Shown here piece by piece: positions 38,366-44,492 of a stretch of 64,000 nt of DNA. The DNA lies in the NCBI RefSeq assembly GCF_000328525.1, contig NC_019964.1:868001-932000 (forward strand), read 5' to 3'. Below the pieces are notes generated by a model that was not told the DNA's origin, searched no databases, and was given only the letters and a program-made list of their open reading frames with translations. Both the position numbers and the translations under genes were made by a program. This DNA is from Halovivax ruber XH-70 (lineage in GTDB: Archaea > Halobacteriota > Halobacteria > Halobacteriales > Natrialbaceae). Numbering within the stretch: the first letter of the stretch is position 1; every line of letters starts with the position of its first letter.

Positions 38366-40108
38366 ATGACCGGAACCGGACCGCGCTCGAGCGGTCGACA
38401 CTCCCGTCGGACGTTTCTCGCAACCGTCGGGACTGGTGTCACCCTTTCGACCAGCGGTTGCACCGAACTGTTCACCGAGGTCTCGTCGTGGGGCGATCAA
38501 CTTTCGGTGACGATTACGACGGTTCCGGACGACGACGATCGACAGAGCAACGGGATCTTCAAACACCTCGAATCGTCGCTTCGGGCGGCCGGTATCGACG
38601 TCACACCGGAGCTCAGGACGACTGCCCAGTTCGAGAAGAAGGTCCTGATAGACCAAGATTTCGACATTTTTGTCGGTCGGTATCCCGGAACACCACGGCC
38701 CGACGGGCTGTACGAACTCCTCCACTCGACGTTCGCCTACGAGCCCGGGTGGCAGAACCCCTACGGGATGACGGACATCGATCTCGACGACCGGCTCGAA
38801 CGGCTCCGTCACGCGACCGGAACCGACCGATCCGCCGCGATCGAGTCCGTCTTCGATAGCTTCCTCGATACGAAGCCGTTCGTCCCGATCTGTGCCCCCT
38901 CGATCTACTACGCCGTCAACGACCAGCAGTTCACCGGGTGGGACCGCCAGTCGTTTCGGACCCGACTCGGCTACGTCGACCTCGATCCGGCCGCCGCCGT
39001 CGACCAGTTCGACGGCCTCGTCACGGATGCCCGTCCGATGCAGAACCTGAACCCCCTCGCCACTCACTACCGCCACACGGGTGCCATTACCTCGCTCCTG
39101 TACGACTCGCTGGCAACCCGGTCGGGTGCCGGATTGTCTCCCTGGATGGCCCACGACTGGGAGTGGCGAGACGGACGCCTCACAGCGACGATGCGGCCCG
39201 ACCTGACGAGTCACGACGAGGAACCGGTCACTGCCGAAGACGTCGCGTTCACGTTCGAGTTCCTCGCCGACCTCTCGCTCGGGCGAGCGGACTCCCCGAT
39301 CCCGGCGCCTCGGTTTCGCCGGGAGACGTCGGCAGTCACCTCGGCGACGGCAACCGACGACGAGACGGTCGAATTTACCGTCGACGCCTCCCGAGAGGTG
39401 GCGACGTCCGTCCTCACCGTTCCGATCCTTCCGGAGCACGTCTGGCGTCCGATCGTCGACGAACTCGACGAGGAGACGGCCTCGACGGCCACCTGGCTCC
39501 GTGAGGAACTCATGAACGAGGAGATTAGCCGCGTCGGCAGCGGTCCGTACCGGTTCGGGAGCTGGGTACAGGGCGACCTGCTCACGCTCGATCGATTCGA
39601 CGGGCACTTCTCGGTGGAGGATCCGGACCTTCCGGGCGTTCCGGTCGAGTCGCTCGTCCTTCGAAACGCCTCCAACGGGTCGGTCGCGATCGAGATGGTC
39701 GACGCCGGTGACGCCTCGGCTCTCGTTACACCGATCGAAGCCGACGTCATCGGCGAGACCCAGGAGATGGAGACGGCCGCCCGAATCCACGATCCGGGAT
39801 GGGCGTATTACCAGATCGGGTTCAACACCCAGAAACACCCGTTCAGCAACCACCGATTCCGCCGGGCCGTCGCCTCCCTGATCGATCGCCAGTGGCTCGC
39901 GGAGACCGTCTTCCACGGCCACGCACAACCACTCTCGGTCCCAAAAGTCGACTCGTCGGCGATGGATGACTACGCGTGGACGGGTGCCGATCCGGAGACG
40001 CCGTTCGTCGGCACAGACGGTGAGATCGACGTCGAGGCCGCCCGGGACCTGTTCCGGAAGGCGAGTTTCGAGTACAACGACTCGGGCGAACTGGTGGTGG
40101 ACGACTGA
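38366..40108 (+). CDS. Circularly permuted SBP_bac_5-like Tat lipoprotein
   Basis: A 580-residue protein. A Tat signal (SRRTFLATVG) ends in a lipobox Cys 32 (STSGC). Residues about 45-205 look like the C-terminal portion of an oligopeptide-binding protein: LRAAGIDV (72-79), DFDIFVGRYPGTPRPDGLYELLHS (98-121), GWQNPYG (128-134), PFVPICAP. Residues about 217-580 look like its N-terminal portion: NLNPLATHYR (228-236), LSPWMAHDWEWRDGRLTATMRP, PVTAEDVAFTFEFL (287-300), GSGPYRFGSW, NHRFRRAVASLIDR, and the chain ends at FEYNDSGELVV, where normal family members continue into the first-named region. This is a circular permutation by motif order. The stop overlaps the next ATG by one base. Confidence 0.8.
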   Translation: MTGTGPRSSGRHSRRTFLATVGTGVTLSTSGCTELFTEVSSWGDQLSVTITTVPDDDDRQSNGIFKHLESSLRAAGIDVTPELRTTAQFEKKVLIDQDFDIFVGRYPGTPRPDGLYELLHSTFAYEPGWQNPYGMTDIDLDDRLERLRHATGTDRSAAIESVFDSFLDTKPFVPICAPSIYYAVNDQQFTGWDRQSFRTRLGYVDLDPAAAVDQFDGLVTDARPMQNLNPLATHYRHTGAITSLLYDSLATRSGAGLSPWMAHDWEWRDGRLTATMRPDLTSHDEEPVTAEDVAFTFEFLADLSLGRADSPIPAPRFRRETSAVTSATATDDETVEFTVDASREVATSVLTVPILPEHVWRPIVDELDEETASTATWLREELMNEEISRVGSGPYRFGSWVQGDLLTLDRFDGHFSVEDPDLPGVPVESLVLRNASNGSVAIEMVDAGDASALVTPIEADVIGETQEMETAARIHDPGWAYYQIGFNTQKHPFSNHRFRRAVASLIDRQWLAETVFHGHAQPLSVPKVDSSAMDDYAWTGADPETPFVGTDGEIDVEAARDLFRKASFEYNDSGELVVDD

Positions 40109-40995
40109 TGCTCGTCGGCCTCCTCAGCCGGGCGACCGTCATCGTGGCGCTCTTGCTCGTGATCGCGATCTGGCAGGTTATCGGGTTCGATACGCTCTTC
40201 CGGGCGCTTCGCAACTGGCGACCGCGTGTCCGTGCTGCGTTGCCCGTGACGCTCGCGCTCGTCCCCGTGTTGATCGTGAACAAACTCGCCAGACAGGACC
40301 TCGTCACCATTTCACAGGAGTACGGCTTCCGGGTCGGCGACCTCTTCTGGGTCATCGAGGGCGAGTTTATCCTCCTCTTCGAGTCGGTCGCTTCGACACC
40401 ACTCACGCAGTACTTCTCGTTCATCTACATCTACGGATACGCGTTCTTGCTGATCTTCCCGGTCGTGATGTACTTCACGCTGCGGGACTCGACGAGATTG
40501 CGGCGTCTGCTCGGTGCGTACGCGCTCAACTATACCATCGGCGTCACGCTGTACGTACTGTTTCACGCCTTCGGCCCACGACAGTACTTCGGGAGCGACG
40601 TCGAGACGATGCTCTATACGTTCGAACCCTCCTATCAACTGCTCACCAGAGAGATCAACCACTACACGAACGTGTTTCCGTCGCTTCACACGTCGCTCTC
40701 TGCGACCGTCATGATCTTCGCGATCAGGTCCAGATCGCAGTTCCCTGCGTGGACACCGACGGCAAGTGTTCTGGCCGTAAGCGTCTGGCTCTCGACGATG
40801 TATCTGGGCATTCACTGGGCGATCGACGTCCTGGGGGGACTGCTCCTGGCGGGGACGTGTGTGTGGCTCTCGTGTCGCTTGATCGGCCGATACGACGTCG
40901 ACAGCCACCTCCAGCCCGCCTACGATCGACTGGCTGCGGTCGTCGATCGGGTCAAGACGACCGGCGACAGTGCGGACGAACGAGGGCACCGGTAA
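40108..40995 (+). CDS. PAP2/Aur1-like membrane phosphatase
   Basis: A 295-residue protein with six or so membrane helices. The PAP2 active-site motifs are present in the Aur1-like form: NVFPSLHTSLSATVM (His as acid/base in motif 2) and STMYLGIHWAIDVLGG (nucleophilic His and Asp, motif 3). Related proteins dephosphorylate lipid phosphates or transfer inositol phosphate onto ceramide. The ATG overlaps the last base of the preceding gene's stop, so it is translationally coupled to the first binding protein. The substrate is unknown; an isoprenoid or phospholipid phosphate at the membrane is plausible. Confidence 0.82.
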   Translation: MLVGLLSRATVIVALLLVIAIWQVIGFDTLFRALRNWRPRVRAALPVTLALVPVLIVNKLARQDLVTISQEYGFRVGDLFWVIEGEFILLFESVASTPLTQYFSFIYIYGYAFLLIFPVVMYFTLRDSTRLRRLLGAYALNYTIGVTLYVLFHAFGPRQYFGSDVETMLYTFEPSYQLLTREINHYTNVFPSLHTSLSATVMIFAIRSRSQFPAWTPTASVLAVSVWLSTMYLGIHWAIDVLGGLLLAGTCVWLSCRLIGRYDVDSHLQPAYDRLAAVVDRVKTTGDSADERGHR

Positions 40996-41077
40996 CGCAT
41001 CGAGCAGTGAAGAGACGTCCGCCCAGCCTGCACCAGTCCACTCGCTGTTGGGGGATTGCCCGCACGTCGTGCTCGGG

Positions 41078-41093
41078 CGTAATACTGTTATAG
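41078..41093 (+). promoter_or_regulatory. Promoter element shared with first SBP gene, copy 2
   Basis: CGTAATACTGTTATAG ends 28 nt before ATG 41122, matching the copy at 38321-38336 at 13 of 16 positions with nearly equal spacing. It implies that the second binding protein has its own promoter, co-regulated with the first. Confidence 0.55.
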
Positions 41094-41121
41094 TCAGCCC
41101 GTCGAACGGTGAACGAACTGA

Positions 41122-42861
41122 ATGGATTCGACTACCCGCGAGTCTCCCCTCTCTCGGCGAACGGTGCTCGGGACGGCGACGGCTGGTGCCGTTCTCGGCC
41201 TCTCCGGCTGTCTGCGCGGAATCAGGAACCTCTTTCGCGACGAACCGGCCGACGGGTTCTCGCTCTCAGTCGCGAGTGTCAGCCCCGCCGACGATCCCCA
41301 GGCTGCCGCCGTGGCGGACCGGCTCGAGTCGGCACTCGAGACCGCCGGGATCGACGTCGAGCGAGAAACACTTCCCCAATCGCGCTTTCTCCGCCGGATT
41401 CTGATCGATCACGAGTTCGATCTCTTCGTCGATCGAACGCCGCGACTTGCCGATCCGTCGGCGCTGTACGGACTGTTGCACACCCGGTTCGACGCGGAGT
41501 GGGGCTGGCAGAATCCCTACGGCTACTCGAACGTGACGATCGATTCGGCCCTCGACCGGCAGCGAGGCCGAACGGGAGCCGCCCGCGACCGGGCCGTCGA
41601 GCAGACACTCGAATCGTTCGCCAACGACCAGCCGTTTACCCCGCTGTGTCGGCCGACCGCGAAACACGTCTGGAACGGCGATCGATTCGTCGGCTTCGAC
41701 CGCCATCCACTCTCCGAACGATACGCGTTCGTGGACATCGAGTCGATCGCCCCCGACGGGACGCTTCGGGCCGTCGTGACCGACGAGCGCGTGACGCGTC
41801 ACTTCAATCCGCTCGGAATCGGGGGTCGCCACTCGTGTTCGCCGATCGACGACCTCCTCTACGACTCGCTCGCGACGACCGTCGACGGCGACGTGCACCC
41901 GTGGCTGGCCGACTCCTGGGCGTGGGAGGACGGCACCGCGACGCTGACACTCCGCGAGACGTCGTGGCACGACGGTGAGCCGGTCTCCGCCGAGGATGTC
42001 GTGTTTACGTACGACTTTCTGGCGGACACGTCGATGGATTCCGCCGAGGCGCCGATTCCCGCACCACTCTACCGTGGCCTGGCGACGGCGATTGCGGACG
42101 TCACCCGTCTCGACGACCACCGGGTTCGGATCACGGCCGAAGCCGGGAGGGCCGCCGCAGAACAGGCGTTCACGATCCCGATCTTGCCAGCCCACATCTG
42201 GCGGGACCGGACCGAGTCGGCCGAGTTCGTCGACGTGGAGACGCCCAGTGGTGCGACGGTCGCCGTCGTCACGGATAACGTTCCGCCGATCGGGAGCGGA
42301 CTCTTCACGTTCGACGACCGGGAGGAAGGCGAGCGCCTCACCCTCTCTCGAAACGGTGACCACTTTACGACGACCGCCGATCTTCCGGAGACGCCGATCA
42401 CCACGCTCGAAGTGACCGTTACGGAAGACACCGAGGCGGCGGTCGCGGCGATCGAAGACAGTGAGGCCGACCTGACGCTGTCGGCACTCGATCCCGAGAC
42501 GGCGAGTTCGTACACCGCGGCGCCACCCCTGGTCACGCACGAACGCCCCAGCCAGTCGCTTTACTACATCGGATACAACGTCCGCAACGCCCCGTTGTTG
42601 AACCCGAACTTCCGCCGGACGATCGCCAGTCTCCTCGACAAGGCATCGATCGCCGAGTCGATTTTCGCCGGTGCGGCCACGCCGGTGGCCTCGCCGCTCG
42701 GCAATCCATGGCAACCTGCCTCGCTCGAGTGGGACGGGGCCGACCCGGTGACGCCGTTCCTCGGCGAAGACGGCGAACTCGATGTGGACGCCGTACGCAG
42801 CGAGTTCAGGTCGATCGGCCACCGGTACGACGACGACGGAAACCTGCTCGTCCGCTCGTAG
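41122..42861 (+). CDS. Circularly permuted SBP_bac_5-like Tat lipoprotein (paralog)
   Basis: A 579-residue paralog of the protein at 38366, colinear almost residue for residue. Tat signal SRRTVLGTAT and lipobox Cys 30 (GLSGC). The permuted C-terminal-type segment comes first: LETAGIDV (72-79), EFDLFVDRTPRLADPSALYGLLH (98-120), GWQNPYGYSN (128-137), PFTPLCRP. Then the N-terminal-type segment: HFNPLGIGGR, VHPWLADSWAWEDG (258-271), WHDGEPVSAEDVVFTYDFL (282-300), IGSGLFTF, NPNFRRTIASLLDK, ending in HRYDDDGNLLV. It should bind a peptide-like or other ligand at the outer face. No permease or ATPase gene is adjacent. Confidence 0.8.
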   Translation: MDSTTRESPLSRRTVLGTATAGAVLGLSGCLRGIRNLFRDEPADGFSLSVASVSPADDPQAAAVADRLESALETAGIDVERETLPQSRFLRRILIDHEFDLFVDRTPRLADPSALYGLLHTRFDAEWGWQNPYGYSNVTIDSALDRQRGRTGAARDRAVEQTLESFANDQPFTPLCRPTAKHVWNGDRFVGFDRHPLSERYAFVDIESIAPDGTLRAVVTDERVTRHFNPLGIGGRHSCSPIDDLLYDSLATTVDGDVHPWLADSWAWEDGTATLTLRETSWHDGEPVSAEDVVFTYDFLADTSMDSAEAPIPAPLYRGLATAIADVTRLDDHRVRITAEAGRAAAEQAFTIPILPAHIWRDRTESAEFVDVETPSGATVAVVTDNVPPIGSGLFTFDDREEGERLTLSRNGDHFTTTADLPETPITTLEVTVTEDTEAAVAAIEDSEADLTLSALDPETASSYTAAPPLVTHERPSQSLYYIGYNVRNAPLLNPNFRRTIASLLDKASIAESIFAGAATPVASPLGNPWQPASLEWDGADPVTPFLGEDGELDVDAVRSEFRSIGHRYDDDGNLLVRS

Positions 42862-43057: not shown

Positions 43058-43417
43058 TCAGTCGTCTTCGAGGGCGTCAGCGATCCGCTGGAGCTGTCGC
43101 GTCGCGTCGCGAACCTCGTCGCGGAGCTGGCGGACTTCGCGGGTGAGTTCCTCGTTGCCGGCCTCGCCGCCTGGGCCACCGCCGCCCGGGCCGCCTCCCA
43201 TCATGCCGCCCATCATCTGTGCGAAGGGATTGCCACCACCCATGCCACCGCCGCCCATTCCGCCACCGCCGCCGAACGGACTCTCGGGGGCGTCGTCGCC
43301 GCCTTCCTGTTCGCGCTTCTCTCGGATCTCCTCGACGCGCTCGCGGAACGACTTTTCTTCGCCGTCGTCCTCGCCCGTTCCCTCGTCCGTCGCATCCTCG
43401 GTAGGATCGTCCGACAT
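43058..43417 (-). CDS. Gly/Met-rich haloarchaeal protein with C-terminal helix
   Basis: A 119-residue protein. Acidic N-terminus with a short basic helix (FRERVEEIREKREQ), a central low-complexity region (GGGGGMGGGGMGGGNPFAQMM), and a C-terminal coiled coil (LTREVRQLRDEVRDATRQLQRIADAL). No enzyme motif. It is probably a small assembly or adaptor protein; function unknown. ATG 43417 is used; longer frames upstream are noise. Confidence 0.65.
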   Translation of the reverse strand: MSDDPTEDATDEGTGEDDGEEKSFRERVEEIREKREQEGGDDAPESPFGGGGGMGGGGMGGGNPFAQMMGGMMGGGPGGGGPGGEAGNEELTREVRQLRDEVRDATRQLQRIADALEDD

Positions 43418-43490
43418 GCCCGCGAATTCACCTGCGGGTCGGAAAAACGTTGTCATGGCTATGGAGTGGGTCGGTGGACGCGGGTCGAAC

Positions 43491-44255
43491 TCAGTCACCG
43501 GCAAAGGCGCCGAGTGACGACTGTCGGTCGGCCGTCGCATCGTCCGCGTCGAGTTCGTGTCCGACCAGTTCCCGGAGGTCGACCGCGTAGGTCGTTCCAC
43601 GCCGTTCGAGGACGAGCAGGCGCCCCTTCAGGCCGACGACGGTACCCGTTCCCACGAGTTCGGTGACCGGCCGTGTCGCAAGCGAGAGGCCGTAGTCGAA
43701 CGAGAAGCGCTCGATCGGGTCGAACGTCGCGAGCACGGATTCCCAGGCGTCGTCGTCGACGTCGGCGGCGAGTCCTTCGATCTTGCGCTCGATCCGGACC
43801 CGGTCGGTGAGATCGGTCGCGATCTCGGCCTCGAGCTCCCGGGCGATCCGGCCGTTGGTGACCGTGTGGATGTGGGCTGCCCGATCTGCGCCCTGTTCTC
43901 TGAGACGGGTTTCGAGCCGTTCCAGCTGGGTGACGCCGACCTTGAACGTGGTCGGTGCGAACGCGGCGAGATAGACGGCGTGGTCCGTGTAACAGTCCAT
44001 CTCGTCTTTGAGACAGGTCCCGGTGCAGCGCGCACAGACCCACGTCGACGTGTGCGCGTCGCAGTACGGCGCCGCGTCGCGATCGCACGGGACGTGTTCG
44101 CCGGTTTCGTAATCGATGGCCCCCGCGCAGTGGCGATCCCCGAGCCCGAACGCGATGGTCTCGTCGCGGCTGAGCGGTGTGAGAGAGAGGTCGCCGTCGT
44201 CACTCACCAACAGCGAAGATCCTCGTCCCGACCGCTCGTAGCCGACGATCTGCAC
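43491..44255 (-). CDS. DUF2797 protein with Cys/His cluster
   Basis: A 254-residue protein. The N-terminal part has HCAGAIDYETGEHVPC, YCDAH, VCARCTGTC and CYTDHAVYLAAF, a likely multi-Cys zinc-binding region; the middle has FKVGVTQLERLETRLREQGA, resembling a GIY-YIG-like layout, with downstream beta-rich domain. The DUF2797 family is common in haloarchaea and uncharacterised. The GTG at 44255 (VQIVGYE) is preferred; an open frame continues to 44411. Confidence 0.72.
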   Translation of the reverse strand: MQIVGYERSGRGSSLLVSDDGDLSLTPLSRDETIAFGLGDRHCAGAIDYETGEHVPCDRDAAPYCDAHTSTWVCARCTGTCLKDEMDCYTDHAVYLAAFAPTTFKVGVTQLERLETRLREQGADRAAHIHTVTNGRIARELEAEIATDLTDRVRIERKIEGLAADVDDDAWESVLATFDPIERFSFDYGLSLATRPVTELVGTGTVVGLKGRLLVLERRGTTYAVDLRELVGHELDADDATADRQSSLGAFAGD

Positions 44256-44492
44256 ACCATCGACTACGCGATGGCTTCCTATAGGCGTGACGTTACCTCG
44301 GACCCGTCGGTCGATACCCTGCCAGGCCGGTCGTAACTTCGGACCGCCGATCCGTACCCGGACCCGCCGATCACGTGACCCGCCTGTCCCGGCGCTCACC
44401 GTCGCCACCAACTACCGAGTCCGGTCCCGATCGCTGACGGTTCGGCCCCACTGTGGCAAAGATTTACGATCGCTCATCGGAAATCCACCGGT

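Follow-up and report, generated by a model that had tools for sequence, protein, structure and literature searches.

The window analysed here is a 64,000-nucleotide stretch of the 3.22-Mb genome of Halovivax ruber XH-70 (NC_019964.1, positions 868,001 to 932,000), in which two genes for lipoproteins of the SBP_bac_5 family of substrate-binding proteins (SBPs; PF00496) flank a gene for a PAP2_3 membrane protein (Table 1). Both lipoproteins scored far above the PF00496 cut-off of 32.4 bits (P0001: 146.3 bits, E = 1.7e-42, in two stretches; P0002: 145.5 bits, E = 2.9e-42), and P0001 is 91% identical to its counterpart in Halovivax asiaticus. Their signal sequences read SRRTFL...TSGC (P0001) and SRRTVL...LSGC (P0002), with residues R14 R15 ... 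C32 of P0001 kept in 29 relatives. The PAP2_3 gene begins with an ATG that overlaps the P0001 stop codon by a single base. Beyond P0002, a minus-strand gene at window positions 43061-43600 is conserved in 43 loci, carries a stretch very rich in Gly, Met and Pro (GGGGGMGGGGMGGGNPFAQMMGGMMGGGPGGGGPGGE) and adjoins a DUF2797 gene (43494-44408).

Table 1. Features of the SBP-PAP2-SBP array (window coordinates; model, the 478-position profile of ordinary haloarchaeal SBPs)
Feature	Position	Strand	Basis
P0001, circularly permuted SBP_bac_5-type lipoprotein, 580 aa	38366..40108	+	intact ORF; PF00496; permuted order; AF2 model
P0001 Tat signal (SRRTFL) and lipobox ending at Cys32	38366..38461	+	read in translation; conserved in relatives
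P0001 first segment, residues 39-187, equivalent to the C-terminal part of ordinary SBP5 (model 317-460 of 478)	38480..38926	+	profiles, fold
P0001 linker, residues 188-221, old C-terminus to old N-terminus	38927..39028	+	gap between profile matches; ordered in AF2
P0001 second segment, residues 222-568, equivalent to the N-terminal part of ordinary SBP5 (model 11-320)	39029..40069	+	profiles
PAP2_3 (AUR1/lipid phosphatase superfamily) membrane protein, 295 aa	40108..40995	+	PF14378; conserved motifs; linkage to permuted SBP
P0002, second circularly permuted SBP_bac_5-type lipoprotein, 579 aa	41122..42861	+	intact ORF; PF00496; permuted order
P0002 first segment, residues 46-177, equivalent to the C-terminal part of SBP5 (model 324-450)	41257..41652	+	profile
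P0002 second segment, residues 246-551, equivalent to the N-terminal part of SBP5 (model 34-304)	41857..42774	+	profile

A sequence-only reading of this locus had proposed that the segment normally forming the C-terminal third of SBP_bac_5 proteins comes first in both chains (residues ~45-205), and that residues 217 to the end correspond to the N-terminal two thirds. Both assignments held, the former by profile and by the fold of the segment modelled alone, the latter by profiles and Foldseek matches. Against a 478-position profile built from 28 ordinary haloarchaeal SBPs only, each protein aligned in two blocks of inverted order (E = 1.2e-07 for the first block and 2.9e-43 for the second in P0001; 2.2e-05 and 2.2e-40 in P0002), and an ordinary SBP used as a control (locus L196) was colinear with the same profile (residues 28-491 on positions 3-469). 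The canonical order of the family (lobes I and II, then lobe III and the C-terminal strands) is not that of P0001, in which model positions 317-460 lie ahead of 11-320. When searched against solved structures, a family profile of the first segment matched only the C-terminal part of SBP5-type chains (AppA 360-505, for example), and a profile of the second segment matched the N-terminal part (AppA 45-311). The further statement that the chains end where an ordinary protein would enter its C-terminal segment was also accurate: P0001 stops 12 residues past its second segment, and on PF00496 the break lies at profile position 286/287. In the permuted proteins tested, the breakpoints are complementary (~320/324 of the 478-position model) and the parent is covered once, with no second C-lobe; a tandem or duplicated-lobe intermediate was sought in 117 family ORFs and none was found.

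An order of this kind could in principle be an artefact of a frameshift, a gene fusion or a chance likeness of motifs. Yet the ORF is uninterrupted with its signal peptide in place, E-values reach 1e-43, the AlphaFold2 (AF2) model described below is confident, all 116 permuted relatives first scored have the same segment order and the matches of a survey across the class span the junction, which leaves an artefact vanishingly improbable. A mis-called start or a frameshift was rejected because both ORFs are intact, with no internal stop, signal peptides where they should be and an order constant in relatives; since the Tat motif and lipobox immediately precede the C-lobe-like segment, the start is not mis-called. 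An unrelated N-terminal domain was likewise rejected, as the first segment matches SBP5 structures both by profile and as a standalone model. P0001 and P0002 are thereby confirmed as surface-anchored, circularly permuted SBP_bac_5 proteins.

The AF2 model of P0001 (residues 42-580; 66 sequences) reached a pLDDT of 92.7 and a pTM of 0.90, and all best Foldseek matches listed for it were SBP5-type binding proteins with TM scores near 0.4-0.5, as should be expected from a sequential aligner applied to a chain with one third displaced. Modelled alone, the first segment was predicted less well (pLDDT 73.7, falling to 50-65 in its C-terminal part) and matched SBP5-type structures at low TM (0.4-0.54). 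Strands at model residues 131-144 are present in the full-length model and were missing and poorly predicted in the lone segment; the two segments are therefore predicted to pack together, and the permuted chain is predicted to fold still as one SBP5-type (cluster C) unit. Measured on an ABC-type permuted relative, the break falls near AppA residue 343-345. Domain III of OppA spans about 271-486 in the usual numbering, and by that numbering the break presumably lies inside domain III. Computation shows that a short linker bridges the former termini, which both belong to lobe I, and that the new ones lie inside lobe III. With the break inside domain III, the lipid anchor would hang from lobe III and no longer from lobe I.

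A profile spanning the junction was searched against genomes of the class. It matched 316 of the 391 Halobacteria genomes drawn (E ≤ 1e-10), a count in which the weakest may be partial matches to ordinary SBPs, most lie far below 1e-40 and those listed span the junction. At E ≤ 1e-25, the window-type junction profile found no match outside the order in 295 genomes. A restriction of the permutation to Halobacteria was nevertheless rejected, because a broader, ABC-type junction profile and searches of plasmids gave relatives in another family of Halobacteriota and in Alphaproteobacteria. The former (family f21; loci L214, L215 and L216) comprises small genomes outside Halobacteriales, has the same permuted architecture and carries genes for OppB, OppC and an oligo_HPY ATPase beside the permuted SBPs of L214 and L215. 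Alphaproteobacteria with permuted SBPs include Nitratireductor, Ketogulonicigenium, Roseomonas, Maritalea and Neorhizobium; their plasmid loci (L190, L191, L193, L194, L195 and L197) are SBP-permease-permease-ATPase operons wherever annotated, and the proteins are labelled merely “ABC transporter substrate-binding protein”. Within haloarchaea, other SBPs with the same break directly adjoin BPD_transp_1 permeases. One ABC-linked permuted SBP (G029:C3:36457-38100, locus L186) has an in-frame TAG flagged in one of its profile matches and is possibly a recent pseudogene.

These ABC-linked proteins share the permutation, the breakpoint and the side of the tree with the window pair, and have ~25% identity to P0001 in cases such as Nitratireductor for which tblastn gives an alignment; they differ in standing beside Dpp-type permeases, several of them in complete ABC operons. 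In unrooted trees that included archaeal and bacterial ordinary SBPs, all permuted proteins, rotated back and used at full length, lay on one side of one branch (100 SH-aLRT), and the N-lobe alone, in which no junction is involved, again separated permuted from ordinary SBPs by a single branch (100/99.7). The window proteins fall in a derived haloarchaeal clade with support of 100. The segment order of ordinary SBP_bac_5 proteins is the general one, and the direction of the permutation rests on that generality. Taken as sequence comparisons, the data fit one ancient permutation event, and the gene neighbourhoods show that permuted proteins of sister groups serve ABC importers in other archaea and in Alphaproteobacteria. 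The suggestion that the permutation predates the duplication of the two paralogs was correct and can be extended: an order common to the ABC-linked SBPs of other archaea and Alphaproteobacteria is far older than the pair.

The sequence-only reading had passed over both the PAP2 gene, tightly linked to the lipoproteins, and the lack of an ABC transporter. The gene between the two lipoproteins encodes a protein that matches PF14378 with 60.2 bits (cut-off 27), and its motifs NVFPSLHTSL and STMYLGIHW..DV (PSLH, H...D) are conserved in 84 aligned sequences. This putative lipid-phosphate enzyme shares the Pfam match and the PSLH and H...D motifs with AUR1-type phosphotransferases (PAP2_3) and PgpB-type lipid phosphatases; unlike other PAP2_3 proteins, members of the window clade nearly always adjoin a permuted SBP. 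Among the 117 window-type permuted SBP genes with downstream sequence, a PAP2_3 gene follows directly in 99, mostly with a 1-nt stop/start overlap, and most of the remaining 18 are the downstream SBP in arrays of the form SBP-PAP2-SBP like that of the window, some Natrialbaceae (the source organism included) having a second SBP without a PAP2 gene of its own. At loci L087 and L107, no PAP2 gene directly adjoins the permuted SBP. Across 100 mutually non-independent genomes, the same for both searches (SBP: E ≤ 1e-50; PAP2: E ≤ 1e-39), the two genes occurred together in 76 and were both missing from 23; the SBP occurred alone in one (G074, fragmentary) and the PAP2 gene alone in none. Genomes lacking the pair are scattered over several families, so their distribution does not reflect a single event. 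Elsewhere in the H. ruber genome, another PAP2_3 gene of this type (G000:C1:500948-501625) has no SBP_bac_5 gene beside it. A literature search on PAP2 in haloarchaea gave no match.

The ordinary members of the family (PF00496: DppA, OppA, AppA and NikA) are homologous to both segments of the window proteins, their structures are matched by the AF2 model and they too are secreted lipoproteins; the window pair departs from them in its reversed segments, its termini in lobe III, the lack of a nearby ABC permease and the link to PAP2. In the H. ruber genome, 5 of 5 ordinary SBPs adjoin permeases, and no BPD_transp_1 permease was found within 180 kb of the permuted pair. Computation shows the window clade in Halobacteria to be without an ABC partner nearby and coupled instead to a PAP2_3 enzyme. 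A permease encoded far away can be shared by orphan SBPs, which counts against a non-import reading. P0001 and P0002 might be ordinary importer receptors for a Dpp/Opp permease encoded elsewhere, with the PAP2 gene merely co-transcribed. Their fold is that of importer receptors, and sister permuted SBPs adjoin Dpp-type permeases in archaea and bacteria alike. However, the difference between ordinary and permuted SBPs within the genome, together with a PAP2 link that holds across distant haloarchaeal families and a pair of genes gained and lost together, makes such a role improbable, though still worth serious consideration.

We put at about even odds the proposal that the permuted SBP is a surface receptor paired with a PAP2_3 lipid-phosphate enzyme in the processing of envelope lipids or glycans, not in import. 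On the outer side of the membrane, the lipoprotein would bind a ligand and either hand it to the PAP2_3 enzyme or gate that enzyme, whose putative PSLH/H...D active site may act on a lipid- or polyprenyl-linked phosphate; the reaction could be a step in assembling or modifying the lipids or glycans of the envelope, and the window-type lipoprotein would not import nutrients. A precedent for such a role is the mycobacterial lipoprotein LpqW, which has the SBP5 fold and channels lipoglycan synthesis instead of importing a substrate (PMC3229680, PMC10928101). The likeness is an analogy of role only: the structure of LpqW (PDB 2grv) was matched weakly by the first segment, whose profile covered residues 410-473 of 621 (E = 0.088), which does not indicate orthology with the permuted SBPs and, by its position, suggests that LpqW itself has the ordinary order. 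LpqW is not known to have a PAP2 partner.

A further alternative is that the permuted lipoproteins are sensors, in which a surface ligand switches PAP2 or another membrane partner without itself being processed. A near-obligate single membrane partner and the absence of a transporter are as compatible with a regulator as with a subunit that presents substrate, and LpqW, too, works by channelling a pathway; against this, the survey of neighbours revealed no signalling gene widely recurrent beside the module, and we consider a purely sensory function unlikely. In favour of the envelope reading, there are genes for an arylsulfotransferase-like protein (ASST) and PMT_2 (a GT-C glycosyltransferase) beside ~10 of 29 distant haloarchaeal loci (L087-L115), with an aryl-sulfate sulfotransferase and sugar-modifying genes near the module in Haloferax gibbonsii; that glycan-type neighbours occur at a minority of loci and are absent from the window counts against this reading, as does the second SBP lacking its own PAP2 gene in some Natrialbaceae. 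A conserved protein of ~430 aa with no Pfam match (e.g., L091:6601-7827) also recurs by the SBP-PAP2 module in distant haloarchaea (L087-L112).

Our most far-reaching interpretation is that one ancient permutation founded an archaeal-bacterial clade of SBP_bac_5 proteins, and that one haloarchaeal branch left ABC transport entirely for an undescribed two-component surface module of permuted receptor and PAP2_3 enzyme that would process lipid-linked phosphates in the archaeal envelope; we assign this a probability of roughly 0.45. No natural permutation of SBP_bac_5 was found in the open-access literature, where the permuted binding proteins found were engineered biosensors only; “undescribed” applies to that literature. 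We rate the finding as a known fold and family in permuted form, in a haloarchaeal branch with a new partner. Automatic annotation conceals the permutation by labelling such genes “ABC transporter substrate-binding protein”; for the PAP2-linked branch, found in most haloarchaea, this name probably misleads. A natural, ancient and widespread permutation in a very large family of binding proteins indicates that new termini in lobe III are compatible with the fold, and the move of the membrane tether to the opposite lobe bears on how SBPs dock with their partners. For haloarchaea, the SBP-PAP2 pair offers a concrete, testable proposal of a non-transport role.
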